From Paremcibacter congregatus (GTDB lineage: Bacteria > Pseudomonadota > Alphaproteobacteria > Sphingomonadales > Emcibacteraceae), in the NCBI RefSeq assembly GCF_006385135.1, contig NZ_CP041025.1, positions 2,697,501 through 2,761,500 of the forward strand: a stretch of DNA of 64,000 nt, written 5' to 3'. A program made the translations under genes and the position numbers. This document shows, piece by piece, positions 28,018-64,000 of the stretch. Every line of letters begins with the position of its first letter. Positions within the stretch are counted from its first letter, which is position 1. Under the pieces are notes generated by a model, which made no database searches, was not told the origin of the DNA, and was given only the letters and a program-made list of their open reading frames with translations.

Positions 28018-28071
28018 TGGTTGCGGGGGTTGGATTTGAACCAACGACCTTCAGGTTATGAGCCTGATAGA
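28018..28071 (-). other. 3' fragment of a tRNA-Met gene (CAU), integration-scar-like
   Basis: Read on the minus strand, the segment gives the anticodon arm CAGGCTCATAACCTG, the variable loop AAGGTC, the T arm GTTGGTTCAAATCCAAC, the acceptor 3' strand CCCCGCA and CCA. The 5' half (acceptor 5' strand and D arm) is missing: after the anticodon stem the sequence diverges. Integrative elements that use a tRNA 3' end leave exactly such a fragment at one border. The CAACGACCTTCAGGTT within it recurs at 55715. Confidence 0.75.
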
Positions 28072-28124
28072 GTATACCATAAACCATTGTAAATAAACGA
28101 TATAAAATCAAAATAATATTTTCC

Positions 28125-48668: not shown

Positions 48669-49967
48669 TTAATTCACAGTATCTAGGAGTTTATTTGTCC
48701 GCCGCACCGCGTCGGCCAGCGCGTCTTTTGGTGCCTTTGTTCCAAATTTTACCGGCTCAACCATTTCATATCCCATTGTTTTTTGGACATCGATCGTATT
48801 TTCGATGAAGGCGGATGGCAGAGCGACATCAACATAAGCCGCATATTGCCTGGCAAGCGGGTGGGTATCATAAAAGGCTCTAAATATGGCGTTTTCCATC
48901 AGGTCTCCCCGCGCCGGCGGAAGGCTTGTTTTTTCAAGCCACAATAAACTGTATTCGTCTTGACTGAGCACCCAGGAGAGGAAGGCAAACGCTTCTTCTT
49001 TCACCTTACTGTTTTTGAACAAAACCAATCCCTTGCTGTCGGCAAAAGTAAATGTTTTACCTTGTCCCTCGCGCAGCACAATCATGGGACCGACGACTAT
49101 TTTTTCCAGTGTTTGCGGATACAGCCGTTCAAAAAATGGAATACTCCACGGCCCTCTCACGCCACCTACGACCAAACCTGTCGTTAAAGGATCATCACTT
49201 TCAAAGTCCAATGCCGTCCACTCACGCTTAAAAATCGTTTCCATAAACGTCAGGACAGAGAGGCCCGCAGCATTATCATAAGAGGCCTTGCCATCGGTAA
49301 TATAAGGCGCCCCACCCGAGGCCGCATAATAGAGTGATATAAAATCATACCAACGGTCGTACCAATTTTTCCCCGTGATAAGCTGCATGCCGTATTTTTG
49401 ATCCAAGGCGGCGTATTTCTCTGAAAGCTTATAGACATCATCATAGGTTCTCGGGACGTCGTCTATCCCAAGCTTTTGCAATATATCCATCCGCCACCAG
49501 ATCAAGGTCGGGTTGGAATAGAGGGGAAAGACATATTTTTTTCCTCCCTGATCCCACCCTTGTATAATTTTTTCCATACGTCTGTGTGCGATCAATTCCG
49601 GATATCCCGCCATGACCGAAAGGTCTTGCAACTGCCCCAAGGCAACCAATTGAGTGGCAAATCCGGAGAAGATATTCGTCGAGATATCAGGAGCATTGCC
49701 CGCCACAAGTGCTGTTAGAATAGCTTTCTCGGAACTTTCCACCGCCGGGATTGTCTCAAACGCCACCGGCATACCCAGGCCGCTCTCATTCCATCGGGCA
49801 ACCACAACCTTCCAGAAAGCCTCCTGCGACTCATCAGGCGCTACCCACAACCTGATCACTTTCCCCTCCGGCGCCGCTTTTGCCTTCTGATCTGAGCCGG
49901 AGCATCCGCCCACCAGAAGCGAGCTGAAGATGACAATGATATGGCTGATCTTTTTCATAAACGTCAT
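48669..49967 (-). CDS. ABC importer sugar-binding lipoprotein
   Basis: A ~432-residue family-1 solute-binding protein. The N-terminus has a lipoprotein signal with lipobox LVGGC, so it is anchored to the inner membrane facing the periplasm. The mature part shows the binding-protein pattern (VIRLWVAPDESQEAFWK, NAPDISTN, KYVFPLYSNPTLIWWRMDIL, GPWSIPF). Start choice: ATG 49967 has AAAGG close upstream; ATG 49958 is also possible; the frame remains open to 50018, inside the preceding gene. It presents the oligosaccharide to the two permeases that follow. Confidence 0.9.
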   Translation of the reverse strand: MTFMKKISHIIVIFSSLLVGGCSGSDQKAKAAPEGKVIRLWVAPDESQEAFWKVVVARWNESGLGMPVAFETIPAVESSEKAILTALVAGNAPDISTNIFSGFATQLVALGQLQDLSVMAGYPELIAHRRMEKIIQGWDQGGKKYVFPLYSNPTLIWWRMDILQKLGIDDVPRTYDDVYKLSEKYAALDQKYGMQLITGKNWYDRWYDFISLYYAASGGAPYITDGKASYDNAAGLSVLTFMETIFKREWTALDFESDDPLTTGLVVGGVRGPWSIPFFERLYPQTLEKIVVGPMIVLREGQGKTFTFADSKGLVLFKNSKVKEEAFAFLSWVLSQDEYSLLWLEKTSLPPARGDLMENAIFRAFYDTHPLARQYAAYVDVALPSAFIENTIDVQKTMGYEMVEPVKFGTKAPKDALADAVRRTNKLLDTVN

Positions 49968-49974
49968 TCGCCTT

Positions 49975-51249
49975 TTATTTCTGTAAAACCAACAAACCTT
50001 CAATGGTCGACTCCGCACCTGAATTCATATTTATTTTCACTGCGGAGTTAATCGCATCATAGGTTCTTCCCGTGGCTTGATCATACATCGCCCTCCTCGC
50101 AATATTGTCCCCTGTGAACCAGGAAGTTAACTTTGCCTGAAGGACAAGATATTTCTTATCTTGCGTGGCCTGATATGCCTCGGCTGCAGCATACACCATT
50201 GGCCGTATTCCATAGGCTATTTGTGGAAAATGTCTTTTATGGATTTCAGAATATCCGGCTTCATCTCGCCTGATTGAGAGCGATTCAACGAGGCCATTCT
50301 TGAGCAAATAAGGATAAAAATAATCAACCTCCCGCAATGCACTTTCTATATACTCTGGGTGTTTCAATTGCTGCCCCGCCAGCAACAGGGCGTAAGCCTG
50401 ACTATTTCCCCAAGCATGCCATTCATTTTCCCAACTTAGAAACATGCCGTAGGGATAGACCCCCTTGCCGCCTTTTTGCATTTGCATAATGCCTTTAGCC
50501 AACGCATTGATCATATCCAAAACGCGGCCATCTTTCTGCCGAACGTAATGCGGCAGCAGACCCATAATGGCGACGGCAGCCTGATCAGCAGCAAACTTCT
50601 GAGGCAACCAGCTAGCAACCCATATGGTGTTCTTGATTTCGGCTATCTGCTCTCCCAATGGTAGATCTCTTTTTAAGTTTACCATAAGCCGGTCAATTGA
50701 GGCTGCGATTCTATTCACCAGATCAACATCAGAGCTCACCAGACCATAAGCCACCTCAAGGCTCCATAATGCGCGAAAGGACCACCAGTTCATTTCTGCT
50801 ACCGACGTTTTATAACCCGTATTTATGGAGAGATCATGCCAAATGAAGTTATTAAAATATCCGTTATCATTCTGCATATACAAAATAAACTCGATCAACA
50901 TCTTCATCTTTTTCAGAATGGCTTTATTCGGGTGGGTTTTTAAATATCCAGCTAACATCACAATAGCCCGGGCAACATCGTCAACACAAGCAAACCCCTC
51001 AGCCGGCTCAATGGCAAAATGATAATCAGGATATTCACTGTAGATATTGACCACTGCCATTTTTGTGCCATTTATCTCCAAGGGAGCATATAAATGATTA
51101 AAATGATCAAGGTTGAACTGAAGAGGTTCAAAAATAGTTTTTTGTGAATGCGACAGCCCTGCGCTATGTGCGCCGCCTGAGACGCAAACAAAAACGCTAA
51201 GCACCAGAAAAAATGCTGTGGTGATGTTTCTCATATATTTTGAACTCAT
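49975..51249 (-). CDS. Secreted protein of unknown family, six-hairpin (alpha/alpha)-like
   Basis: A 424-residue protein with a signal peptide (cleavage near GGAHSAG). The mature chain is rich in helices with repeated Trp/Asp motifs such as FACVDDVARAIVMLAGY, MQNDNGYFNNFIW, MNWWSFRALWSLEVAYG, SWENEWHAWGNSQAYALLLAG and the closing GAESTIEGLLVLQ. The layout resembles (alpha/alpha)6 six-hairpin glycosidases and lyases, but I cannot name a GH/PL family. As first gene of the operon with the importer, it probably trims or binds the polysaccharide in the periplasm. No catalytic residue can be asserted. Two operators lie 60-110 bp upstream. Confidence 0.75.
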   Translation of the reverse strand: MSSKYMRNITTAFFLVLSVFVCVSGGAHSAGLSHSQKTIFEPLQFNLDHFNHLYAPLEINGTKMAVVNIYSEYPDYHFAIEPAEGFACVDDVARAIVMLAGYLKTHPNKAILKKMKMLIEFILYMQNDNGYFNNFIWHDLSINTGYKTSVAEMNWWSFRALWSLEVAYGLVSSDVDLVNRIAASIDRLMVNLKRDLPLGEQIAEIKNTIWVASWLPQKFAADQAAVAIMGLLPHYVRQKDGRVLDMINALAKGIMQMQKGGKGVYPYGMFLSWENEWHAWGNSQAYALLLAGQQLKHPEYIESALREVDYFYPYLLKNGLVESLSIRRDEAGYSEIHKRHFPQIAYGIRPMVYAAAEAYQATQDKKYLVLQAKLTSWFTGDNIARRAMYDQATGRTYDAINSAVKINMNSGAESTIEGLLVLQK

Positions 51250-51308
51250 TTTTTTCCACCGTATTTAGTTGCCACAGGCCATCGAGAATAGGTTATTTAT
51301 TGGCATTT

Positions 51309-51357
51309 GTTTAACGTTAAACTTAACTGTTGATTATGTCAATATTTAACGTTAAAC
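51309..51357. promoter_or_regulatory. Two TTTAACGTTAAAC operators in the divergent LacI/importer promoter
   Basis: GTTTAACGTTAAAC at 51309-51322 and TTTAACGTTAAAC at 51345-51357, centred ~36 bp apart, lie in the 262-bp region between the importer operon (starting 51249, leftward) and the LacI gene (51512, rightward). They could control both directions. Confidence 0.75.
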
Positions 51358-51511
51358 TTAATTCACTATAAATTGGAAACAGGATGTTGTACATTTTCTT
51401 TAAACGAAATATGTGCCACGAGAACAATAACCGGTAACGCTTTGCAATTTGCTTACTCTTGTGCCGCATAGGAATATATTATTGAGCCACGAAAAAGGAT
51501 TTTATAACGAC

Positions 51512-52576
51512 ATGGCCCGAAAGAAAGAGACCCTCAAGTCTATTGCTGCGAACCTCGGCATTACGCATACATCTGTTTCCAATGCCTTTATCAACCCGTC
51601 CAAAGTATCAGTCAAGCTGCGCAAAAAGATACTGGATTATGCAAAATCAGTAAATTACCACGGCCCCAATCCTGCTGCGAGATCACTAAGGACAGGTTTG
51701 TGCGGCGCCATAGGCATCATTTACAATGACCAGCTCAGTTACGCTTTCTCTGATCCACATGATATTGCTTTCCTGCGTGGCGTGTCCACGGTTTGCGAAG
51801 AAAGAGGGACAAATATTGTTCTTATTCCGTTAAAGAATAGCGACCTGGATAACTTTGAATCTCTGGACGCCATGGTAGATGGCTACATTCTAAATGCACC
51901 CTATAAGAGCAACCCAACGACCCAGCGTGCCCTCTCAAGAGGACTCCCGACCGTTGTCGTTGACTTCGAGTCTCCTCAGCATATCAGCGTGCTGACCAAT
52001 GATGCCAGTGTCATGCAGGAAATGACCTCTCACATCACCTCCCTTGGACATAGAAAGATCGGGATTATCACATTCCCTCTAAAAGAAGGCAGTCAAGCTC
52101 TATTTAGCCTTGAGAGGGAACCTGAGACTGAAAATTACGTCGTTAACCAGCGACTCCAGGGATGTCGCGCCGCCCTTCTCAACGAAGATATTGAGTTAAG
52201 CAATATTCTGGTTCAGGAAATCACCAACAGCAGAAAAGGCGGTGCAGAGGCCGCCCAAATTCTGATGAATGCTGTTCCTGATATTACGGCCCTGATCTGT
52301 TTTTCAGATCAACTGGCCTATGGCGCCATGGAAGAATGTCGCCGACGCAAGATTGATCTCCCCGGTCGCATTTCAATTACCGGGTTTGATGGCATCACCC
52401 CCTATGACCTAAGCCCTGAATTACCCGCCCTGACCACAGTGCGGCAAGACGCCGATCAAAAAGGTCGAAAAGCTGCAGAAGCGCTTCTGAACAAAGCCAG
52501 CGTTAAAAGTAATCAAATCGACATACAGGCAGAAGTAATCATTAAAGACAGTACAGCAAAAGTATGGAATTTATAG
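51512..52576 (+). CDS. LacI-family regulator (mannoside locus)
   Basis: A 354-residue repressor: N-terminal helix-turn-helix KSIAANLGITHTSVSNAFIN (~8-27), hinge with NPAARSLRTG, and a sugar-binding sensor domain (~60-354). The start at ATG 51512 follows AAGGA by 12 nt; the frame is open 21 codons further upstream but without a domain. It stands with the MalK-type ATPase gene, 4 bp away, in one unit. Five palindromes with TTTAACGTTAAA, the typical even-spaced LacI operator form with a central CG, lie at the three promoter regions of the locus, and this protein is the best reader. Confidence 0.9.
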   Translation: MARKKETLKSIAANLGITHTSVSNAFINPSKVSVKLRKKILDYAKSVNYHGPNPAARSLRTGLCGAIGIIYNDQLSYAFSDPHDIAFLRGVSTVCEERGTNIVLIPLKNSDLDNFESLDAMVDGYILNAPYKSNPTTQRALSRGLPTVVVDFESPQHISVLTNDASVMQEMTSHITSLGHRKIGIITFPLKEGSQALFSLEREPETENYVVNQRLQGCRAALLNEDIELSNILVQEITNSRKGGAEAAQILMNAVPDITALICFSDQLAYGAMEECRRRKIDLPGRISITGFDGITPYDLSPELPALTTVRQDADQKGRKAAEALLNKASVKSNQIDIQAEVIIKDSTAKVWNL

Positions 52577-52580
52577 AAAC

Positions 52581-53738
52581 ATGGCTAACTTAACCATTAA
52601 AGACCTTGTTAAAACCTACATTGAAGATGAAATCATCCATGACATTAATTTTGATATTCAGTCTGGTGAATTTATCGTCCTTGTCGGACCCTCCGGCTGT
52701 GGAAAATCCACAATTCTGAGAATGATCGCCGGGTTGGAAGAAGTCACTTCCGGTCAAATATTCATTGATGATGTGGACGTAACAAATACAGCGCCTTCGA
52801 AAAGAGGCGTTGCGATGGTATTTCAATCTTATGCCCTCTACCCTCACATGACCGTCAGGGAAAATCTAAGTTTTGGCCTGAAAAATATGAAACTTGATAA
52901 GGCATATATCGATCAACATATCACTCACGTCGCCGACATATTGCAACTGAGTGAGTATCTCGACCGCTTGCCCAGCCACCTTTCAGGTGGACAGAGACAG
53001 CGGGTTGCTATTGGACGTACGATCGTTCGCGATCCAAAAATATTTCTGTTTGACGAACCCCTGTCAAATCTTGATACAGAATTACGCGTACAGATGCGCC
53101 ATGAATTGTCAAAATTACATAAAAAGTTAAAAAGTACGATGATTTATGTGACGCACGATCAAATAGAGGCCATGACCTTGGCAGATAGAATAGTTGTTTT
53201 GGATCAGGGTAGAATTTCTCAAATGGGAACGCCATTGGAGCTCTATAATCACCCAAAGAATATTTTTACAGCAAGCTTCATTGGCAGTCCAAAAATCAAT
53301 TTACTTGATGGTAAAGTAATGGATAGCCAACACGGAAAAACACTTGTTAACCTGGACGGTGGTATAAATATATGCCTGAACAAGCATTACCCTCTGATAG
53401 AGGTTGGTGACACTATAACGCTTGGTTTACGACCAGAACATATACATGCTCACCTCAAGTCAGGCGATGTTATTTTAGAAGTACAACCGCATGCCATAGA
53501 AAACCTGGGGGATTCAACATACGTCTATGCCAAACTTCAGAATCACTCAGACATCCGTGTGAAGCTCCAAGGGCAAAATACATTTAATAGTCAAAATGTT
53601 ATTACCCTCGGCATCAATCCAAATGACATTTTGCTCTTTGACCAGAAGGGTGACGCGATTATTCCTTCAGGAACAGCCCACCCTGCCCCATCGGAAGATT
53701 TAGAGAATTCATCCTCGATGAGACAAAAGGTATCATAG
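52581..53738 (+). CDS. ABC sugar importer ATPase (MalK/UgpC type)
   Basis: A 385-residue ATP-binding protein. Walker A GPSGCGKST (~38-46), Q-loop in VFQSYALYPHMT, signature LSGGQRQRVAIGR (~134-146), Walker B IFLFDEPLSNLD, switch His in YVTHDQIEAMTLADR. A C-terminal OB-type regulatory domain (~240-370) contains GLRPEH, as in MalK/UgpC. It should drive the MalFG-type permeases at 46931-48666. The importer is thus split between two divergent units. It begins 4 bp after the LacI gene. Confidence 0.93.
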   Translation: MANLTIKDLVKTYIEDEIIHDINFDIQSGEFIVLVGPSGCGKSTILRMIAGLEEVTSGQIFIDDVDVTNTAPSKRGVAMVFQSYALYPHMTVRENLSFGLKNMKLDKAYIDQHITHVADILQLSEYLDRLPSHLSGGQRQRVAIGRTIVRDPKIFLFDEPLSNLDTELRVQMRHELSKLHKKLKSTMIYVTHDQIEAMTLADRIVVLDQGRISQMGTPLELYNHPKNIFTASFIGSPKINLLDGKVMDSQHGKTLVNLDGGINICLNKHYPLIEVGDTITLGLRPEHIHAHLKSGDVILEVQPHAIENLGDSTYVYAKLQNHSDIRVKLQGQNTFNSQNVITLGINPNDILLFDQKGDAIIPSGTAHPAPSEDLENSSSMRQKVS

Positions 53739-53851
53739 CATGTGGATACGACAATCACGTCCCTCTTTCTAAGCATGACATCTTCCTCCTTTTAAAATAT
53801 TTTTCAATATTTACATGATTTATTACAAAATTCTCCCTTGCGTCTTACTTT

Positions 53852-53865
53852 GTTTAACGTTAAAC
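53852..53865. promoter_or_regulatory. GTTTAACGTTAAAC operator before pgi
   Basis: A perfect 14-bp palindrome identical to 43219 and 51309, located 145 bp upstream of the chosen pgi start. It suggests that glucose-6-phosphate isomerase is made together with the mannoside locus. The remaining sequence 53739-53996 is AT-rich and holds no gene. Confidence 0.7.
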
Positions 53866-53996
53866 TTAATGCGATATCTTCCTTACATCACGGATAGATG
53901 ATCTTTAACCAAATACTTCCTTTCCACTATTCGTCCTCAACTCAGGAAGATGGGAGTGATAGCCCCCCCTCTTCCTCTTTTTCTTGGTACAAGCTT

Positions 53997-55640
53997 ATGA
54001 ATACACAAACCACATCCTGGCGTTTACTTGACAGATTACGGAGAGACGGCACGGGTTTGCGGCTGAATGACCTGTTCGCCAATGATCCGGCGCGCTTTGA
54101 GAAATATGCCCTGCAGGTCGAGAATATCCTGTTTGATTATTCCAAAAATCTGGTGACCGATGACATCATGGCGGGTCTCTTTGACCTGGCCCGCGAGGTC
54201 GATGTCGAAGGCTGGCGCGATCGCATGTTTAGCGGCGACCGCATCAATGTGACCGAGGACCGCCCGGTTCTCCATGTCGCCCTGCGCAATATATCCGCCA
54301 GGCCCATCCTTGTGGACGGGATTGATGTGATGGAACAGGTCAGTGAGGAACTGGACAAGATGAAACGCCTGACCGATGCCGTGCGCTCGGGAAAGTGGCG
54401 CGGCTACTCTGGCAAGCCGATCACCGACGTGGTCAACATAGGCATCGGCGGCTCCAATCTCGGTCCCCAGATGGTCACCGAAGCCCTCCAGAAATACAGC
54501 GACAACAGGATACGCGTGCATTATGTGTCCAACGTCGACGGCGTCCAGATCGCCCAGGTCCTGCGCCCCCTGAACCCGGAACAGGTGCTCTTCGTGATTT
54601 CCTCCAAGACCTTCACCACCCGCGAGACCCTGACCAACGCCGAAACGGCGCGCAACTGGTTACTGGCTTCGTCTTTTGAAGAAACCGCTCTGGAGAAACA
54701 TTTCATTGCCGTCACGGCCAACCGCAATAACGCCCTCAAGTTTGGCCTGCCCCAGGAAAATATCCATGATTTATGGGACTGGGTTGGCGGGCGGTTTTCT
54801 CTCTGGTCGGCCATCGGCCTGCCCATCGCCCTGAGCCTGGGATTCGAGCATTTCGAAAGCCTTCTCGGCGGCGCCTATGCCATGGACCGCCATTTCGAAA
54901 TGGCGCCCATGGAACAGAATGCGCCAGTGATACAGGCTCTGATCGGCATCTGGAACAGCACGTTTCTCGGCATGCAAAGCCAGGCGATTCTGCCCTATAA
55001 CCAGTCCCTGCACATGTTCTCCGCCTATCTGCAGCAGGCGGACATGGAAAGCAACGGCAAGTCGGTGGATTGGGACGGCAATGACGTACCCTATTCCACA
55101 GGTTCGATCATCTGGGGCCAGCTCGGCATCAACGGCCAGCACGCCTTCTATCAATATCTCCACCAGGGCAAGAATATCGTCCCGGCCGATTTTATAGGCG
55201 CCGTGGAAAGCAGCACCAGCGTCCGTGGCCACCATGAATATCTCATGGCAAATTTTATCGCCCAGACCCAGGCCCTTATGACCGGCATTGACGAGACGCA
55301 AGTGCGGGCCGAGCTGCGCGCCAAGGGCAAGTCCGAAGCCTATATCAATAACCTCGTGTCCCACAAGATCCACCAGGGTAACCGCCCGACCAATACGATC
55401 CTGATGGAGCGCATTGATCCGCATACTCTTGGAGCGCTGATCGCACTTTATGAACATAAGATTTTCGTTCAGGGCATCATCTGGAAGGTGTGCTCTTTCG
55501 ATCAATGGGGCGTGGAGCTTGGCAAGGAGTTGGCGCACCGCATCCTGCCGCAGCTCGACCAGAACGGTACGGTTGAGCCTCAGGATAGTTCGACCACGGG
55601 CCTGATCGATTTCTATAAAAACGTCAGAAAAAAAAGTTGA
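53997..55640 (+). CDS. pgi: Glucose-6-phosphate isomerase
   Basis: A ~547-residue glycolytic enzyme converting glucose-6-P and fructose-6-P. Family signatures GGRFSLWSAIGLPIAL (~265) and GQLGINGQHAFYQYLHQG (~375) and the sugar-binding GIGGSNLGPQM (~155) and SKTFTTRETL (~205) are present. MNTQTTSWRLL at 53997 is the family N-terminus; no good ribosome site stands before it, and the frame is open to an ATG at 53898 (33 more residues of low-complexity Ser/Pro type). GC content rises sharply inside the gene compared with the genes before it. In this locus it closes the mannose-fructose-glucose-phosphate conversion. Confidence 0.93.
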   Translation: MNTQTTSWRLLDRLRRDGTGLRLNDLFANDPARFEKYALQVENILFDYSKNLVTDDIMAGLFDLAREVDVEGWRDRMFSGDRINVTEDRPVLHVALRNISARPILVDGIDVMEQVSEELDKMKRLTDAVRSGKWRGYSGKPITDVVNIGIGGSNLGPQMVTEALQKYSDNRIRVHYVSNVDGVQIAQVLRPLNPEQVLFVISSKTFTTRETLTNAETARNWLLASSFEETALEKHFIAVTANRNNALKFGLPQENIHDLWDWVGGRFSLWSAIGLPIALSLGFEHFESLLGGAYAMDRHFEMAPMEQNAPVIQALIGIWNSTFLGMQSQAILPYNQSLHMFSAYLQQADMESNGKSVDWDGNDVPYSTGSIIWGQLGINGQHAFYQYLHQGKNIVPADFIGAVESSTSVRGHHEYLMANFIAQTQALMTGIDETQVRAELRAKGKSEAYINNLVSHKIHQGNRPTNTILMERIDPHTLGALIALYEHKIFVQGIIWKVCSFDQWGVELGKELAHRILPQLDQNGTVEPQDSSTTGLIDFYKNVRKKS

Positions 55641-55654
55641 GCATCTCTTTCCAG

Positions 55655-55678
55655 GGGAATGACACGTTAACTTTCTGT
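55655..55678. repeat. Possible solo IS6-like end
   Basis: TGACACGTTAACTTT matches the right end of the 61-bp mini-element (read inversely) exactly over 15 bases, and the three Gs before it also fit. It stands 15 bp after the pgi stop, with no partner end visible. Confidence 0.4.
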
Positions 55679-55698
55679 TAAACGACAGGATCAGCAAG

Positions 55699-55734
55699 CC
55701 TGAACAGGTCGTTTCAACGACCTTCAGGTTTTGT
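55699..55734 (+). terminator. Probable pgi terminator
   Basis: CCTGA-AC-AGGTCGTT, loop TC, AACGACCT-TCAGG form a stem of 13 pairs with a two-base bulge, followed by TTTTGTG. It lies 58 bp after the pgi stop. Its right arm coincides with the 16-bp tRNA-Met-like sequence, so the resemblance to a terminator could also be fortuitous. Confidence 0.5.
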
Positions 55735-55750
55735 GCTAGAACCGTGCTAG
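55715..55750. repeat. att-like copy of the tRNA-Met segment plus paired GTGCTAG
   Basis: CAACGACCTTCAGGTT at 55715-55730 is identical to 28042-28057 inside the tRNA-Met fragment. It is followed directly by GTGCTAGAACCGTGCTAG (55733-55750), one base shorter than the copy at 28125-28143. Shared core plus shared arm-like repeats at both places suggest the two ends of an integrated segment of ~27.7 kb, or two related integrations. Confidence 0.5.
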
Positions 55751-55922
55751 GTGTAATATCAATGACTTAGCAGAATATAAAGAGAATATATGGGGAATGT
55801 ATTTTATACTATTTTGAGTTATACGTTATAAAAAAAATAGTTAAGACTGGTTGCGGGGACTGGAAATAAACGGAAGTTGACACGGCGAATAACACTACGG
55901 CACAAGAAATAATAGGCGTGCT
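55751..55922 (+). promoter_or_regulatory. AT-rich region upstream of the first CRISPR repeat (possible leader)
   Basis: About 170 bp, very AT-rich, with stretches such as TATTTTATACTATTTT, no gene. With the array transcribed on the + strand, this side precedes the first repeat and could be the leader. Type II-C arrays do not always need an external leader promoter. Confidence 0.4.
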
Positions 55923-58136
55923 GCCATAGCTTCCATTCCGACACGGTTATGCTATGATTCAAGGGTGGTGACCGGTAGGGCCTCTGTGGCCATAGCTTCC
56001 ATTCCGACACGGTTATGCTATGATCTGGCCGTTGAAGCAGAACAGCGTGAAGCCGCCATAGCTTCCATTCCGACACGGTTATGCTATGATGGATATGCAA
56101 TTCTCCGCTTGGAATATCGGGCCATAGCTTCCATTCCGACACGGTTATGCTATGATGATTTTTCATTCCCTTTAAAGCCTTTTTGGGCCATAGCTTCCAT
56201 TCCGACACGGTTATGCTATGATTGTTCAAGAGTTAAGTTTTGCTCTAACGAAGCCATAGCTTCCATTCCGACACGGTTATGCTATGATTTTAACTCTCTG
56301 GATTGGAAAGTCGTTTATGCCATAGCTTCCATTCCGACACGGTTATGCTATGATTTAATGTTTTCAATGGCAGGGTGTCCCACGGCCATAGCTTCCATTC
56401 CGACACGGTTATGCTATGATGTCGATGTGCTTCAGGACAGAATTAAAGACGCCATAGCTTCCATTCCGACACGGTTATGCTATGATGGCCAATATGCGGA
56501 TCTGATGCCGAAAGAAGCCATAGCTTCCATTCCGACACGGTTATGCTATGATTGATCATATGCGATTGTTTGAATATGTTCAGCCATAGCTTCCATTCCG
56601 ACACGGTTATGCTATGATTTTTTTCTTGACAGTATGCCTTATACATTAGCCATAGCTTCCATTCCGACACGGTTATGCTATGATGGTATTACGTCGCGGC
56701 TATATCTGGGCCGTGCCATAGCTTCCATTCCGACACGGTTATGCTATGATCGCGTAATCGATAAGGCTTATCGCAAGAGCGCCATAGCTTCCATTCCGAC
56801 ACGGTTATGCTATGATAAAGGAAATATTCGCCGTGCTGGGCTATTAGCCATAGCTTCCATTCCGACACGGTTATGCTATGATATACAGCAGGGCACAAGT
56901 TATAACCGTGGGGCCATAGCTTCCATTCCGACACGGTTATGCTATGATTCCGACCCCTTGAAACCGCAACCGTAAACAGCCATAGCTTCCATTCCGACAC
57001 GGTTATGCTATGATGATTGCCCGCCCATTTTGACCATCTCGTAGGCCATAGCTTCCATTCCGACACGGTTATGCTATGATTCGGGGTCGTCGCATAACAA
57101 TCACCATAATGCCATAGCTTCCATTCCGACACGGTTATGCTATGATTCACGCGGGCGGCGGGGTAATGGACGGCGAGCCATAGCTTCCATTCCGACACGG
57201 TTATGCTATGATTGAAAAACTTTGAATATATCTACTATCAAGGCCATAGCTTCCATTCCGACACGGTTATGCTATGATTAAGTGCATATTGTCATGAAGC
57301 GTGCGGCCGCCATAGCTTCCATTCCGACACGGTTATGCTATGATGCGGTTTTGATCCGCAGTGCGCGCCGCCGAGCCATAGCTTCCATTCCGACACGGTT
57401 ATGCTATGATTGTGTTGTTCTTTACAACACACCCTTCACTGCCATAGCTTCCATTCCGACACGGTTATGCTATGATGAAGAAAAGCATGTTTCACATGAT
57501 CGGCGTGCCATAGCTTCCATTCCGACACGGTTATGCTATGATAGCAATTTATTATATGAGGGGATAAGTAACGCCATAGCTTCCATTCCGACACGGTTAT
57601 GCTATGATTATTGACATAATCATTATCATGATATTCTTGCCATAGCTTCCATTCCGACACGGTTATGCTATGATAAAAATAATACATCATTTGATATGTA
57701 AAGCGCCATAGCTTCCATTCCGACACGGTTATGCTATGATTTCGCTTTCATACATTTCATAACCAAAACAGCCATAGCTTCCATTCCGACACGGTTATGC
57801 TATGATTACACCGGTAAACGAATGTTGCGCCGTCGAGCCATAGCTTCCATTCCGACACGGTTATGCTATGATTGTCTGTAGCATCTGTGACCTTATCCAC
57901 AAGCCATAGCTTCCATTCCGACACGGTTATGCTATGATCACGAAACGGGAACCCATTTAAACCTCGACGCCATAGCTTCCATTCCGACACGGTTATGCTA
58001 TGATAGCCCCACCAGAGAGGTAAACGGTGGACGTGCCATAGCTTCCATTCCGACACGGTTATGCTATGATTGTTATACCGTCCGGGGATGTCATAACTCT
58101 GCCATAGCTTCCATTCCGACACGGTTATGCTATGAT
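55923..58136 (+). CRISPR. Type II-C CRISPR array, 34 repeats of 36 bp, 33 spacers of 30 bp
   Basis: Repeats start every 66 bp from 55923 to 58101. Each begins GCCATAGCTTCC and ends GCTATGAT; the ends are partly inverted (ATAGC/GCTAT). All copies inspected, including the first and last, are identical, and the spacers are all 30 bp and differ from one another. Orientation is set by the tracrRNA: its anti-repeat (62569-62601) pairs with the repeat as read on the + strand, so crRNAs are read left to right. The repeat shape is that of Neisseria-type II-C repeats. The last nine bases, TGCTATGAT, form an extended -10 box, so each repeat may start its own crRNA. Cas2 follows in the opposite direction. 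Confidence 0.98.
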
Positions 58137-58165
58137 AGGTTGGTTACAAGATACTGAAAATAAAG

Positions 58166-58218
58166 AACAAAGACCGGACATCTTAAAATAAAACAAGTTG
58201 TTCGGTCTTTGTTTTTTC
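58166..58218. terminator. Bidirectional terminator between array and cas2
   Basis: AACAAAGACCG (58166-58176) pairs with CGGTCTTTGTT (58203-58213). A T-run follows on the + strand (TTTGTTTTTTC) and a weaker one on the minus strand (TTCTTTATTTTC). It can end both the array transcript and the cas operon. The right arm lies inside the last codons of cas2. Confidence 0.7.
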
Positions 58219-58512
58219 ATTATTTTTATGCGTTCCAACAAGAATTTTCATCCTCTCATACTGCTTATCTGTTATTTTTAACACTCTTACACTCCCGTCT
58301 GAGGGTAAAATGCCGTCTAAGCGCCGCAAATGTTTTTCAACCCGATCCTGACCGTTGCAAATACGTGCATAGACTGAGTATTGTATCATCATATAACCAT
58401 CTTTTAGAAGATAATTTCTAAAGCGCGAGGCTGTTTTACGTTCTGGTTTCGTAGAAGTGGGTAAATCATAAAAAACAAATAGCCACATGAATCTATCCTT
58501 TGCCGCACTCAT
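58183..58512 (-). CDS. cas2: CRISPR-associated endonuclease Cas2
   Basis: A 109-residue ferredoxin-fold protein of the adaptation complex with Cas1. The N-terminal strand WLFVFYDLPTSTKPERK holds the conserved Asp (~16), and NYLLKDGYMMIQYSVYARIC, and LRVLKI-type strands follow. It overlaps the cas1 stop by 4 bp (ATGA). The last codons overlap a terminator arm. It is the last gene of the leftward cas9-cas1-cas2 operon, next to the array. Confidence 0.96.
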   Translation of the reverse strand: MSAAKDRFMWLFVFYDLPTSTKPERKTASRFRNYLLKDGYMMIQYSVYARICNGQDRVEKHLRRLDGILPSDGSVRVLKITDKQYERMKILVGTHKNNEKTKTEQLVLF

Positions 58513-59414
58513 CCTAATTTACCAATTTTGAACTCAGTGAGAGGCAATAATGCGGGGCTGTTATTCTCCATTGCGCAAACTAACCCAGCCGCCATTTTAT
58601 CACACGTGTTTGCCAGACTATGGGTTTCACCTTCTAAATCACATAACCATGCCCCTGCACCGGCTAGATGCTGACGGCATTCAATAGGCAAACTCTCCCC
58701 TTCCCTGAACAAACCTTCAGCTTGCATCTCAAAAACATAGTGATCAACAAAAGGCCGTAAAACCTCCATCAGGTCATCTGTCAGATTGAAAGAATTCAAT
58801 TCATTGGCATGATGCAAGCCAAAGGTCGGCATTAGACCATAAGCAACCTGTGATCGTGCCACATAGGCCCGTATGATTGCATAACCATAATTCAAAGCAG
58901 CATTAACAAGGTCGTTATTGCCTCTTTTAAAACTTTTGCCCATTAATCTTGTCCAATAATAACGGGCGGCTTGAGCCTCAAGATTATCAGGATCACCCGA
59001 CTTTACTTGATTTGCCAGCGTTATAAGGCGCTTGACCTCACCACCTGCCCCTTGTAGGCAGACAGCTTGATTGATAATTTTTGCCTGTATCACCCTTTGC
59101 CACAATCTTTTTTTAAGCGCTTTTGTGCAGGACTGTTGAATATACGCAACACGGCTTTGACGACTATGCGCATGAAAGGGCAGCATCACACCATTTGGCA
59201 TATGGCTTTTATCGCAAGTTATGATCGCTACCCCTTGGTCTTGCGCATATGATAACAAACTGGCATTCAGACTGATTTGCGGTGATTCAAGCACTAGGGC
59301 AATGATATCTTCCAATGGCAAACTGTGCTTACCACCTTCGTTCTCAAGTTGTAATTGGCCTTTGACCAGCCTAAGTTTTGCAGGGTTCTGGATGAGAATT
59401 GTGCGCCACGCCAA
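58509..59414 (-). CDS. cas1: CRISPR-associated endonuclease Cas1 (type II)
   Basis: A 301-residue integrase for new spacers. The best start is the TTG at 59414 giving (M)AWRTILIQNPAKLRL, the usual type II Cas1 N-terminus, with GGAGACAAGG before it; earlier in-frame codons lie deeper inside cas9. Metal-binding residues of the family fit Glu in the TRLMGKSFKRGN region (~138-150), His in PTFGLHHANELNSFNLTDDLMEVLRPFVD (~205-233) and Asp/Glu in the latter. It overlaps cas9 by 44 bp and cas2 by 4 bp, so the three genes are translationally coupled. Confidence 0.95.
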   Translation of the reverse strand: MAWRTILIQNPAKLRLVKGQLQLENEGGKHSLPLEDIIALVLESPQISLNASLLSYAQDQGVAIITCDKSHMPNGVMLPFHAHSRQSRVAYIQQSCTKALKKRLWQRVIQAKIINQAVCLQGAGGEVKRLITLANQVKSGDPDNLEAQAARYYWTRLMGKSFKRGNNDLVNAALNYGYAIIRAYVARSQVAYGLMPTFGLHHANELNSFNLTDDLMEVLRPFVDHYVFEMQAEGLFREGESLPIECRQHLAGAGAWLCDLEGETHSLANTCDKMAAGLVCAMENNSPALLPLTEFKIGKLG

Positions 59415-62400
59415 GCCTTGTCTCCTTACGAACTTTATATTTGTTACCAAAATAATCGACTGTATATTTTTCGAAGGATTGCAACGTTTTTACGCCTGTA
59501 CGATCTTTCCCATCTCCCTTCTTACCAAAAGATGGATCTCTGTTATGTGCAGTAATGCCAATAGCACCAGTACTGATATCCGTTCCCCCGTAATAGCCAA
59601 AATATTCATCTTTCTTGCTTTTGATAAAAAGGAGGTCATTTTTACAGAGAGAGAAAATAAAATCTTTATCCTCCATTTCTTCCCATTCCCCCTCTGGTTT
59701 ATATGCAATTATTGCTCTATTTGGCAGTGTACCACCAACAAAATGATGTACATAAATGGGAACAAGAAAAAATTTACCATTTTTTCTGAAAACATCCACC
59801 CTCACCATATCGCCGTTGCTCGCCAAGCCCCCATTAATGAGAACGCCGGATTTCTCGATGGTTTCAATACGTACGGCATTAATGAGCGGCCCCTGTTTCC
59901 CAGGGTCATTTGTTGGCATAAATATTGGTGTTGCAAAAGCCTTTTTAGGGTCGCCTTTATGCGCATCCAGACGTTTTTTCAAAACAGTATAAAGCCTAAT
60001 GTTGCGCTCCTTATGCACCATTCTTTCCAACATGTCGGGCTTTAAATCTGCCACTTTAATTCGCTGTATAATCTTGCCATCATCCTTACGAATACTGCGG
60101 ATGGTATCTTGATGTGCCGGGCCGGTAACTTTGCGCACCGGCATTCGGGATACAAAAATATGTTCTACTGCGTCTTTAGTGTCTTGTATGAAGCTTTCCC
60201 AAGGTTTAGGCGGTAAGGCTCGTTTATGCGGGTTTTTACGCCGGGCCTCATATTTATTCCAACGGGTTAAATTTTGCACCATGCTTTGGGTTGAACAGGC
60301 AAGAACAATGGCATCAATCGCATGGTGGGTATCATTACGGCGGTTTTTATCGGGAAAACCCCATGCACTACGCAAATGTGAGGTCAAAGCGCCATTACGT
60401 GCTTGCACACGGTTTCCTATCCCTAGGCCCAAAGATTGCTCCACATGGTTTTTAAGCAGCTTTGCGATATAACGAGTATCATTTAAGGCGCGATCTTTCC
60501 ATTTATTGGCCTTTTCTTCATCAAAATTCTCAATTAATAGATTATCGGCTTTCGGCTTGGGCAAGCCCTTTGCAAAAGCCGAGAGAGTCTTCAAATTTCT
60601 GCCTTGTTTTTGAAAATATTCAACGGGCGTATTATTAGCTTTCATCTGGTTTTCATCAGTGCAACACAGAATTTTATTCATGTAGCTATCGTTCCAAGAC
60701 CTACTGTAGGGTATGATATGGTCGATCTGCGTTGCCACAGGATCTCTCATCATTTGATGATTGATATATACCCCTGAATAGGGACAGAAACCCTTTTGCT
60801 CTTTCCACAGCCGATACTTGATAATGTCACCGCCCCGCACATTATCGGGATCAATATCCAGAATTTCAGCGGCATGTTTTTTTGCCGCTTCACGGTAAGA
60901 TTGGTTTGTTTTTTGATCTCTTTCCTTATCTTTTCTTTCTTTAAATGAACGTCCAACGTCCCGTGCCATTTCGATTATGATTGTCTCTGGCATACCGTAT
61001 TGGGCAATAACGGCATTCATCACTTTGCGTGTCTGCGCCAACGCCCTGTTTACCACAGGATTGCGCACATCTTTAAATGACGGGATTTTAGTGAGACCTT
61101 TATTTTCTTTTTGGCTATGATTATAGCCCGCTTCCCTGCAAGCTTTGTCATAGGTTAAGCCCTTTTGCATAAAGGGTAAAATCGCCCGCACGACTTTCAG
61201 GGACAAATCTATGGTTCTGCTGAAATTCGTGATTGTAAGCAAAGAGCTAATTTGGTCTTCTTGCAATTCAAGAGGCGCGAGCAAATCTCTAATTTCCTGC
61301 TCACTTTCATAAAAAGACAAAATATGAGAAATCTCATCAAGGCTATTGCGCCTTGGCCCTGTCCATTGTTGCCAGTCATCATCGCTACCCGTCGCCATTT
61401 TACTTTTAAGCGTTTGATAGCCGGTTAAAATTAACCAAACTGACTTTTCCGCTCTATCCCGCACTTTCTCCCATGTGTCATCACGATCATTAATTTTACG
61501 GTAACTCATATTAAAGCGCATATCGTCGCTTAAATTCAGTATTTTACGGGCTTGTTTAAAACTTACGCCGCTCTTATTTTTATGGGCCAAGTCAGTGAGT
61601 TTGTTTTTTTCATCCTGACTTAAAACTCTTTCATTGCTTTTAGTGTCTCGTATCTTTGCATTATTCAACTTTGACCAAAGAATGAACAGTTCTGCGCTAT
61701 AAGAAAATTTAGGGGCCCGTTTTTCTGAAGGCTCTAAAGTGCAATAACCGACCATTCCAATCGACGATTGTAGATCACGTTGACAAAAGGCAATGCCACT
61801 GCCCTCTAACGTATATTTTTTATCCGCTTCGCCATTTCCTGCAAAAGCATGTTCTAGCTCCCTTGAGGCTTTAATATTTCCATATCGTCTTTGGGCGGCA
61901 AATATCTTCCGAACTTCCTGGCGTAATAAATCGCGGGTCACAAAATTATCATATGAGCCATGCCCGTTCCGCTTTTTATCAAGCGTAGCCAAATAAGCCC
62001 CAACCGTTTCAGCCCCGCTTTGCACCATTGCTTCTTGTAATTGCACAGCTCCACTTAAGGCCTTTTTACCTTCAGTGTCATTGGCTATCGCTCCCTTGCG
62101 GTTAGATTGATAGCCCCGTCTTTTGGCAATGTGGAATAAAACACGAGAAAATTCAGCATCCGTTAGAATGCGCTCTAATGATTCTTTACGTAAATCCCAA
62201 GGGGATTTTTTGATCAACTTTTCATTATTATGACGTTTGTCCTGCACATCTATGGCATCAATATTATCAATGCCATACTCAATAAGCATTCGACGAACAG
62301 CGCGTTTTCTTTGTGAACGCCTGCCGAATACCCTACGCATCCCCCGCTTGGTACGGCGCGGTTCAGCCAATGATGCACCGGTTTTTGGATTTTCTGCTGC

Positions 62401-62505
62401 TTCAAAAATATGTACCCCAGAACAAAGTATGTTTTGCGCATTTAAGTTGACACCTGCAAACCCCACAGATGCAATCCCAATATCAACCCCAAGATTATAT
62501 GACAT
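59371..62505 (-). CDS. cas9: Type II-C Cas9 nuclease, 1044 residues
   Basis: A compact RNA-guided DNA endonuclease. RuvC-I LGVDIGIASVG with D8; Arg-rich bridge helix RGMRRVFGRRSQRKRAVRRM (~54-73); alpha-helical REC lobe (~75-490); RuvC-II ETIIIEMARDVG with E512; HNH domain with TQIDHIIPYSRSWND (H596) and metal-ligand-type N610; RuvC-III DTHHAIDAIVLAC with H727/H728 and D731; then the C-terminal PAM-interacting region. All catalytic residues of both nuclease sites are present, so it should be active. Length is that of Neisseria/Campylobacter II-C enzymes. GGGAGG lies just before the ATG. No csn2 or cas4 is present, which excludes II-A and II-B. The PAM cannot be read from the window. Confidence 0.97.
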   Translation of the reverse strand: MSYNLGVDIGIASVGFAGVNLNAQNILCSGVHIFEAAENPKTGASLAEPRRTKRGMRRVFGRRSQRKRAVRRMLIEYGIDNIDAIDVQDKRHNNEKLIKKSPWDLRKESLERILTDAEFSRVLFHIAKRRGYQSNRKGAIANDTEGKKALSGAVQLQEAMVQSGAETVGAYLATLDKKRNGHGSYDNFVTRDLLRQEVRKIFAAQRRYGNIKASRELEHAFAGNGEADKKYTLEGSGIAFCQRDLQSSIGMVGYCTLEPSEKRAPKFSYSAELFILWSKLNNAKIRDTKSNERVLSQDEKNKLTDLAHKNKSGVSFKQARKILNLSDDMRFNMSYRKINDRDDTWEKVRDRAEKSVWLILTGYQTLKSKMATGSDDDWQQWTGPRRNSLDEISHILSFYESEQEIRDLLAPLELQEDQISSLLTITNFSRTIDLSLKVVRAILPFMQKGLTYDKACREAGYNHSQKENKGLTKIPSFKDVRNPVVNRALAQTRKVMNAVIAQYGMPETIIIEMARDVGRSFKERKDKERDQKTNQSYREAAKKHAAEILDIDPDNVRGGDIIKYRLWKEQKGFCPYSGVYINHQMMRDPVATQIDHIIPYSRSWNDSYMNKILCCTDENQMKANNTPVEYFQKQGRNLKTLSAFAKGLPKPKADNLLIENFDEEKANKWKDRALNDTRYIAKLLKNHVEQSLGLGIGNRVQARNGALTSHLRSAWGFPDKNRRNDTHHAIDAIVLACSTQSMVQNLTRWNKYEARRKNPHKRALPPKPWESFIQDTKDAVEHIFVSRMPVRKVTGPAHQDTIRSIRKDDGKIIQRIKVADLKPDMLERMVHKERNIRLYTVLKKRLDAHKGDPKKAFATPIFMPTNDPGKQGPLINAVRIETIEKSGVLINGGLASNGDMVRVDVFRKNGKFFLVPIYVHHFVGGTLPNRAIIAYKPEGEWEEMEDKDFIFSLCKNDLLFIKSKKDEYFGYYGGTDISTGAIGITAHNRDPSFGKKGDGKDRTGVKTLQSFEKYTVDYFGNKYKVRKETRLGVAHNSHPEPCKT

Positions 62506-62528
62506 TTTTTAACCTCCCAAAAAAGAAC

Positions 62529-62556
62529 TTGACATATTAAGTGCATATTTTATGAT
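62529..62556 (+). promoter_or_regulatory. Promoter of the tracrRNA gene
   Basis: TTGACA at 62529-62534, a 16-bp spacer and TATGAT at 62551-62556 form a near-consensus sigma-70 promoter. Transcription would begin around 62563, just before the anti-repeat. The same TATGAT -10 ends each CRISPR repeat. It lies 24 bp from the divergent cas9 ATG. Confidence 0.8.
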
Positions 62557-62562
62557 GTTTTG

Positions 62563-62675
62563 CAACTTATAGCATAACCGTGTCGGAATCGTTGTTATGG
62601 TAAGGTATTGAAAGATACCGCAAAGTTTCTGCCCCTAGCTGGTTTACCTTCTAGGGGCATCTTTGATTCTTATAC
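62563..62675 (+). ncRNA. tracrRNA
   Basis: The anti-repeat at 62569-62589 is complementary to the repeat's ATTCCGACACGGTTATGCTA and one base more, 21 pairs in a row. After a 4-nt internal bulge, GTTATGGT at 62594-62601 pairs with the repeat's first bases GCCATAGC (two wobble pairs). This is the upper-stem/bulge/lower-stem shape of II-C guides. A nexus-like hairpin follows (GGTAT, loop TGAAAG, ATACC; 62604-62619), then the terminator hairpin TGCCCCTAG/CTAGGGGCA (62630-62659) and a T-rich end. It is divergent from cas9, 58 bp from its ATG. About 110 nt long. Confidence 0.9.
62630..62671 (+). terminator. Rho-independent terminator of the tracrRNA
   Basis: TGCCCCTAG (62630-62638) and CTAGGGGCA (62651-62659) form a perfect 9-bp stem with a 12-base loop, followed by TCTTTGATTCTT. 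In II-C guides this hairpin also forms the last stem-loop of the tracrRNA held by Cas9. Confidence 0.8.
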
Positions 62676-63591
62676 AAATATTCTTGATTAGACTAAGTGA
62701 TCCAGTTCCGTTTATGTGAACGAAGTTACAATTATATTTTGGATGTAGGTTTCAGCTATTCAGAATTCATCTTGGGTCAAAACCAGCAATATAGACGTTA
62801 CCTTCAAATTAATTCAAATATCAATTTTTTGCGCGTACACTCCGCACATAGGGGACTGGCCTCTGAGCGGGAGTTGAGGCGCCTCTATATATTGGATTCT
62901 GTCAGCGTAAATGTGCATAGAAAATCTTGAATTATCACCAATTCTAGGCTTGCAATCTGAGCAATTTTCCACCTAAACATATCACTTTTTTCAATCCTCT
63001 AACTCATTGAAACATATGGTATAAAAAATATACGACACCTGTTTTATTATGAACATTCAAAGATTTATCAAAACCATAGTGCTCTGGTGTGAAAAATTGA
63101 GTGTCGGTAAAAAGGATGTGCAGGCAATAACTTAAGCGCCCCGTGCCTAAGTTCCTTTTATCTTGCCCTAAGCCAACAGCACTAAATCTCTCCATTTTTT
63201 CTCGTTCAATTTTGCTGGAAGCGGCCCCGGAAAATCACCCCCTGCGCCAAACTGAAAATTCTGGCAAGATGACCATTAGAAAGAGGTTCTGGATGATCAG
63301 GAATTGCTCGACAAGACAACCCAGAAAATGGTGCCAGAATAGAGATTGGGAGGAGTGAGTTTGAGCGCAAGATAAAAGGTGTAGCACCAATGGCCCCTAA
63401 CTCCCCGTCTGCACATCTATTTACTGGCACCAATTCTTTAGCCCTAACACCAAGGAACCCGTCTAAGCCTTATCCCCCATGGTCTGGGATCAGTGCCAGT
63501 TGGATCAAAGTTCCTTTTCATGCCACATATTCAGCGCGCCGGTGCAGCTCATCCAGCCCTGCATCAGATTTTGACCCGCCCCGGACCAAGC

Positions 63592-63633
63592 CCCTGACAC
63601 ACGCCAGCTATGGGGGAAGCGCGTGTATCAGGG
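63592..63633. repeat. Imperfect hairpin in the gene-free right end
   Basis: CCCTGACACACGC (63592-63604) and GCGTGTATCAGGG (63621-63633) pair at 12 of 13 positions around a 16-base loop. No T-run follows. From 62676 to 64000 I see no supportable gene: all open frames are short, without a family motif or good ribosome site. The region may be the remains of decayed mobile DNA or of an intergenic spacer. Confidence 0.35.
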
Positions 63634-64000
63634 ACCAAGGAATAATCCTAACACAATAGAAATCCGCATCATCAAACAGGAAAACCCATCCCACAAAGCG
63701 AGCCACTTTATGCCACCTTTGAATGACGGAAAGGTGATTACAAAAGCCGGAATTTTCGATGACAAAAAACACCGCCCAGGCTATTGAAAATATTGACTTT
63801 TCCAGAACATGGTGCTCAACCTGTCATCAAAAAAACAGGGCCTGTAATCGCGTTGTAGATCAATTTTACAAAGCCTGTTCAATGACTTAAAGATCTTATG
63901 GCACCAAAGGTGTCAGCACGGGAGGTGCATAGTGTGTATGTATGATTACACTTTTTATTGAAGGCTCTATATCTTGAATTTTCTCGGTTCCTCTAGAAGT

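Follow-up and report, generated by a model that had tools for sequence, protein, structure and literature searches.

A type II-C CRISPR-Cas9 locus in Paremcibacter congregatus with spacers that match PM2-like proviruses on the same chromosome

We analyzed a window of 64,000 nucleotides (64 kb) from the chromosome of the alphaproteobacterium Paremcibacter congregatus. Near one end of the window lie cas9, cas1, and cas2, an array of clustered regularly interspaced short palindromic repeats (CRISPR), and a predicted trans-activating CRISPR RNA (tracrRNA). (Positions are coordinates within the window unless they are prefixed by C1, which is the genome's one contig, of 4,189,011 bases.) This is very probably a complete type II-C CRISPR-Cas9 adaptive immune locus, and in its mechanism, nothing that we found departs from known II-C systems. 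At least one of its spacers is clearly of phage origin: it resembles a gene in two proviruses elsewhere on the chromosome, and these proviruses appear to be related to the tailless phage PM2.

The original prediction described a Cas9 of 1044 amino acids with both nuclease sites, along with Cas1 and Cas2, all intact. This held up: the three reading frames are open, the family models are strong (Table 1), and we located the Cas9 motifs DIGIAS (from D8), IIEMARD (with E512), QIDHIIP (with H596), YMNKIL (with N610), and HHAIDA (727–732), whose residues we take to have the catalytic roles in the RuvC and HNH nucleases. It had also called this Cas9 compact. The length is right, but it is ordinary for II-C, with orthologs of 1035–1082 amino acids. 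The reading frame for cas1 was listed from a TTG codon, but because the match to TIGR03639 begins at residue 15, the true start is probably near 59414, about 12 codons later. In the list of open reading frames, there is no further gene-like frame between the array and the tracrRNA.

The assignment to subtype II-C, which was also part of the original prediction, is supported by the gene content, the family models, and the closest solved Cas9 structures. The best NCBIfam model for Cas1 is type II/NMENI, and this is the only Cas1 in the genome. The family of cas4, a gene of II-B systems (PF01930), was not found in the genome, and the control for that search matched in 8 of 14 genomes. Among solved structures, the P. 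congregatus Cas9 scores highest against 9ar4 (607 bits), 6jdq (583 bits), and 6jdv (578 bits), and 6jdq is also the nearest structure to its C-terminal part. Scores are lower for 5axw (193 bits) and 6rj9 (133 bits), which we take to be II-A Cas9s, and for the S. pyogenes entries (41–45 bits); we have partly assumed the identities of the other structures as well. Two points tell against reading too much into this evidence. The ranking of scores is not a clean test of subtype, as 8d2k, which is presumably a II-C Cas9, gets 48 bits. And the search for csn2, a gene of II-A systems (TIGR01866), was uninformative: it had no match in this genome, but the control also matched in 0 of 14 genomes.

The systems of the Nme1Cas9 type from Neisseria meningitidis (6jdq and 6jdv; 6jdv is Nme1Cas9, PMC9433092) also have cas9-cas1-cas2 and 36-nt repeats, and their Cas9 matches the P. 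congregatus Cas9 over two long stretches. Another point of comparison is EHCas9, from a metagenomic II-C locus, whose nearest homologues are in Alphaproteobacteria. The EHCas9 locus (PMC10281378) likewise has cas9-cas1-cas2, 36-bp repeats, and a tracrRNA upstream of cas9, but EHCas9 differs in having 1070 amino acids and in recognizing NGG as its protospacer adjacent motif (PAM).

To place the P. congregatus Cas9, we built a tree of 22 proteins (P. congregatus and 21 fetched sequences, with fragmentary ones excluded and with no named II-A or II-B references among them). It places the P. congregatus Cas9 with those of Micavibrio sp. UBA5572 (L006) and of L007, with support of 99/97, and these belong to a set of six along with L008, L009, and L010. 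A Cas9 from the same genus (L026) and one from the same family (L025) form a separate pair, and another from the same genus (L031) is distant. This placement, together with the lower G+C of the cas genes (0.37–0.44, versus 0.51 in the first 55.9 kb of the window), suggests that the locus was acquired horizontally, within this limited sample. The Cas9s of L006 and of L007–L010, which are contigs of metagenome-assembled genomes, are 53–61% identical to that of P. congregatus, and L006, L008, and L010 have arrays with near-identical repeats. These loci differ in their hosts and in a residue that is expected to contact the PAM (see below), which is D in L006 and L007, H in L008 and L010, and N in L009.

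As predicted, the array has 34 identical repeats of 36 bp, which we counted as exact copies, and 33 distinct spacers, every one of 30 nt. Beyond these 34, the genome has no copy of the repeat with up to 3 mismatches (and a control search with the reversed pattern gave 0). The 3' end of each repeat is TGCTATGAT, an extended -10-like motif; the repeats of Neisseria end in such a motif too. The tracrRNA's pairing with the repeat puts the array on the + strand, with each CRISPR RNA (crRNA) in the order spacer, then repeat.

The anti-repeat of the tracrRNA (62566–62601) has 7 mismatches in 36 positions relative to the complement of the repeat. The repeat:anti-repeat duplex has a computed energy of -51.7 kcal/mol; 500 shuffled repeats averaged -13.0 kcal/mol, and the strongest duplex among them had -24.5 kcal/mol. 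The promoter that the original prediction placed before the tracrRNA is near consensus, and it ranks first among 12 promoter-like sites in 55600–62800; such sites are not enriched in this region (the mean for shuffled sequence was 18.2). The predicted terminator is less certain. The terminal hairpin at 62621–62665 has a stable fold (z = -2.9), but its T-run is imperfect, and neither it nor any other hairpin that we describe at this locus was among the 4 sites of a terminator scan (shuffle mean 7.1). The core of the tracrRNA is common to P. congregatus, L006, and L007; in the nexus of L007, two base pairs are changed on both sides. The tail differs in L008–L010. We also noticed that the first 12 nt of spacer 21 (57279–57290) are the same as part of the promoter region between cas9 and the tracrRNA (62538–62549), or 14 nt if the end of the repeat is included. 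A match of this length was reached by 11 of 1000 shuffled spacer sets. As it is the PAM-distal end that matches, a role for this spacer as a guide is doubtful.

In type II-C systems, every repeat includes a promoter, and spacer acquisition takes place at the last repeat to be transcribed, according to a study of these arrays (PMC12080349). By analogy, we infer that the P. congregatus array has repeat-borne promoters and the same polarity, so that its spacers would run from oldest (spacer 1) to newest (spacer 33), with spacers 2 and 3 among the old ones. Degenerate repeats on the cas-distal side of the arrays in L006 (partial) and L010, both judged by eye, agree with this polarity. What argues against it is that the first repeat in P. 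congregatus is unmutated, while the first repeat is mutated in about 60% of II-C arrays (PMC12080349).

We compared all 33 spacers to the P. congregatus genome itself. Spacer 3 matches both proviruses, at C1:1845418–1845447 and C1:1849434–1849463, with 3 mismatches, one at the third base counted from the PAM side and two elsewhere. Spacer 2 matches C1:1847173–1847202, which lies between the aligned parts of the two copies, with 5 mismatches, two of which are at its final two bases. This site is in a helix-turn-helix gene, which we take to be a phage gene because a homologue (40% identity) follows a related provirus in another genome (G403). If equal base frequencies are assumed, the expected number of chance sites in the genome is 2.7e-5 with up to 3 mismatches and 0.009 with up to 5, and 60 shuffled spacer sets gave 0 matches with up to 6 mismatches in the 20-kb provirus region. 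At the peptide level, we compared the 33 spacers to five provirus-bearing regions, with 198 shuffled spacers (maximum score 42) and control DNA (top score 39) for comparison. Only spacer 3 stands out (score of 54), while spacer 19 (40) and spacer 2 (39) are within the shuffled range. This counts against spacer 2, so the case for it rests on the DNA match and on its position.

The two proviruses are adjacent and inverted copies, outside of the window and within C1:1838044–1857172 (L054). Copy A is at C1:1838044–1846850 and copy B is at C1:1848030–1857172, and they are 92–99.7% identical in the aligned parts. Protein models, which we ran on the proteins of copy A, identified a PM2-type coat protein, a packaging-type ATPase, a cell-wall hydrolase (lysin), a holin of the gene transfer agent (GTA) type, and a Rep_1 replication protein. 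The coat protein matches P2_N with 31.1 bits (the cut-off is 25), while P2_C is below its cut-off, and the protein is 25% identical to the major capsid protein of Vibrio phage PG21 (E = 6e-4). The ATPase matches a PHROG packaging family and is 27% identical to a protein from the phage Jorvik (E = 1e-9). With a coat protein and a packaging ATPase in one small element, both copies can be classified from their sequences as PM2/corticovirus-like (Vinavirales) proviruses. The replication genes of the two copies differ: copy A has the Rep_1 protein (430 amino acids), and copy B has a 443-amino-acid protein without a hit in Pfam or PHROG, which is 62% identical to a 446-amino-acid protein of the G403 provirus. 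Viral contigs yielded no relatives of the coat protein or the lysin; one of these searches gave 83 pattern stretches, of which none were confirmed.

For 31 of the 33 spacers, we have no accepted target, which counts against our reading of the locus. The original prediction had suggested searching phages and plasmids for targets, but these searches yielded nothing convincing (12 and 5 records, respectively, all with E of about 7–8). Exact patterns of 20–27 nt from 5 of the 33 spacers (3, 12, 13, 32, and 33) had no match in viral contigs. We also searched 296 genomes of relatives and 385 genomes from the class, scoring at most 2 candidates per genome among the matches listed. Matches in G412, G527, G379, and G106 have 5–8 mismatches, which we judged to be chance at that search size; the site in G412 is inside a gene of ordinary appearance. 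Several of the other listed matches straddle artificial joints between spacers. Matches of spacer 20 to the G403 provirus and of spacer 5 to a stretch of G450 have 8 mismatches each and are at chance level. As for the relatives' own arrays, those of L010 and L006 had no match in a phage collection with E up to 1. When these arrays were compared to four relatives' genomes, there was one match of 30/30, between spacer 19 of L006, the nearest relative, and a gene in its own genome (G678, L081) which we take to be queA-like. By its sequence, this is a self-targeting spacer. The flank of its target adjoins unread bases, and we did not use it for the PAM.

Nme1Cas9 reads its PAM with Q981, H1024, T1027, and N1029 (PMC9433092). 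In our alignment of the C-terminal part, these positions correspond to Ala934, Asp976, Thr979, and Ala981 of the P. congregatus Cas9, so T1027 is kept and the other three are changed. Given these altered contacts, the PAM should not be N4GATT. In orthologs that are 59.6–70.4% identical to Nme1Cas9, Asp at the position of H1024 goes with C at position 5 of the PAM, according to the same study (PMC9433092). Applying this rule to P. congregatus is a stretch, as just 41 of 98 residues around the PAM site are identical to Nme1Cas9. The flank of the spacer 3 match, CGAC-C-CGA, fits C at position 5, although one fitting flank would arise by luck about 1 time in 4. The flank of the spacer 2 match, CAAG-T-AAA, has T at this position and does not fit, which is a point against the rule. 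Overall, the PAM probably has C at position 5 (N4C-type).

We propose that Cas1 and Cas2 add 30-bp spacers to the array at the end that faces cas2. The -10-like ends of the repeats would drive the transcription of short crRNA precursors. These would anneal to the tracrRNA, which is encoded divergently, and be loaded into Cas9. Cas9 would then cut DNA that matches the spacer and has a PAM on the spacer's 3' side. The old spacers would include memories of PM2/corticovirus-like tailless phages, and related phages, most simply escape variants, are now resident in the form of two inverted proviruses. The simplest reason for these proviruses to be tolerated would be that the sites that resemble the spacers are mismatched. 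It is plausible that the locus is active or was recently active, given the open genes, the identical repeats, and at least one spacer of clear phage derivation. A more elaborate story, in which the array records a standing contest with PM2-like phages, variants with mismatches in the seed later lysogenized as an inverted pair, and spacer 21 is self-derived and has a regulatory past, seems quite improbable to us.

We also considered that the locus might be a silent relic which is no longer expressed or no longer acquires spacers, so that spacer-related PM2-like proviruses were free to settle. This would fit with the fact that spacers 2 and 3 have not kept two related proviruses out of the chromosome, and with the many spacers that lack an accepted target. 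However, the 34 repeats are identical, the three cas genes are open and have active-site motifs, and the tracrRNA has a near-consensus promoter; and the 3 and 5 mismatches could explain the tolerance by themselves. So we consider a relic to be unlikely. Alternatively, the proviruses might persist because they encode an anti-CRISPR against the P. congregatus Cas9. We scanned some of the small reading frames of the proviruses with Pfam: 8 of 9 had no hit, and the ninth is DUF736. (A tenth that we scanned is just outside of copy B.) Proteins without a hit leave room for an anti-CRISPR, but none of the frames scanned matched an anti-CRISPR family in Pfam, and mismatches are a simpler reason, which makes this explanation very unlikely. 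Finally, it is extremely improbable that the provirus matches of spacers 2 and 3 are coincidental: although spacer 2 has 5 mismatches, comparable to matches with 5–6 mismatches in G527 and G379, and an ordinary peptide score, the expected numbers of sites are low, two neighboring spacers match one element where shuffled sets had no matches, and the peptide score of spacer 3 stands out. Mismatched escape variants remain our preferred explanation for the resident proviruses.

Table 1. Features of the locus, in window coordinates.
Feature	Position	Strand	Details
Hairpin and short T-run, 3' of pgi and 5' of the array	55698..55729	+	Fold -17.4 kcal/mol; terminator scan negative
CRISPR array	55923..58136	+	34 repeats, 33 spacers; strand set by complementarity to tracrRNA
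Spacer 2	56025..56054	+	Matches helix-turn-helix gene beside provirus copy A
Spacer 3	56091..56120	+	Matches lysin gene of both proviruses
Hairpin and T-run, array-cas2 gap (acquisition side)	58165..58214	+	Fold -23.4 kcal/mol; terminator scan negative
cas2	58183..58512	-	109 amino acids, open; TIGR01573 (E = 1.3e-25); PF09827
cas1	58509..59450	-	313 amino acids as listed from TTG; TIGR03639, type II Cas1 (E = 4.2e-83)
cas9	59371..62505	-	1044 amino acids, without internal stop; TIGR01865 (E = 6e-222); HNH_4, RuvC_III
tracrRNA promoter	62529..62556	+	TTGACA-16-TATGAT; 11 of 12 consensus matches
tracrRNA (predicted)	62564..62665	+	Start inferred from promoter; anti-repeat, nexus hairpin 62604–62619, terminal hairpin 62621–62665

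Two other hairpins flank the array (Table 1). The one downstream of pgi could shield the array from read-through; terminators are present upstream of some II-C arrays (PMC12080349). The one in the gap between the array and cas2 is a possible terminator, and by eye, it is similar in P. congregatus, L006, L008, and L010. Beyond the tracrRNA, about 1.3 kb (62700–64000) has no convincing gene; the frames that are listed there have 63–89 amino acids. On the other side of the locus, 48669–55640 contains genes for sugar use: a solute-binding protein, a LacI-type regulator (the LacI helix-turn-helix model is under its cut-off), a MalK-like ATP-binding cassette (ABC) ATPase, and phosphoglucose isomerase. 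A weak Rfam match to tRNA at 28027–28078 (29.7 bits, with a cut-off of 29), where ARAGORN finds none, is probably either a remnant or a coincidence.

A PM2-related phage is already on record as a target of CRISPR spacers: Rhodobacter capsulatus has spacers against Jorvik, a tailless membrane phage related to PM2 (Vinavirales), and Jorvik-like phages also exist as proviruses in Alphaproteobacteria (PMC10589892). Both cases appear to involve CRISPR memory against a PM2-related phage. But the host and the phage are different, and what the P. congregatus array matches, imperfectly, is a pair of proviruses on the chromosome that carries it. The P. congregatus locus would thus be another alphaproteobacterial case, besides Jorvik, of CRISPR memory against these little-studied tailless membrane phages. 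It is also a II-C locus with clear boundaries, and its predicted PAM can be tested: C at position 5, based on Asp976 and on the flank of the spacer 3 match.

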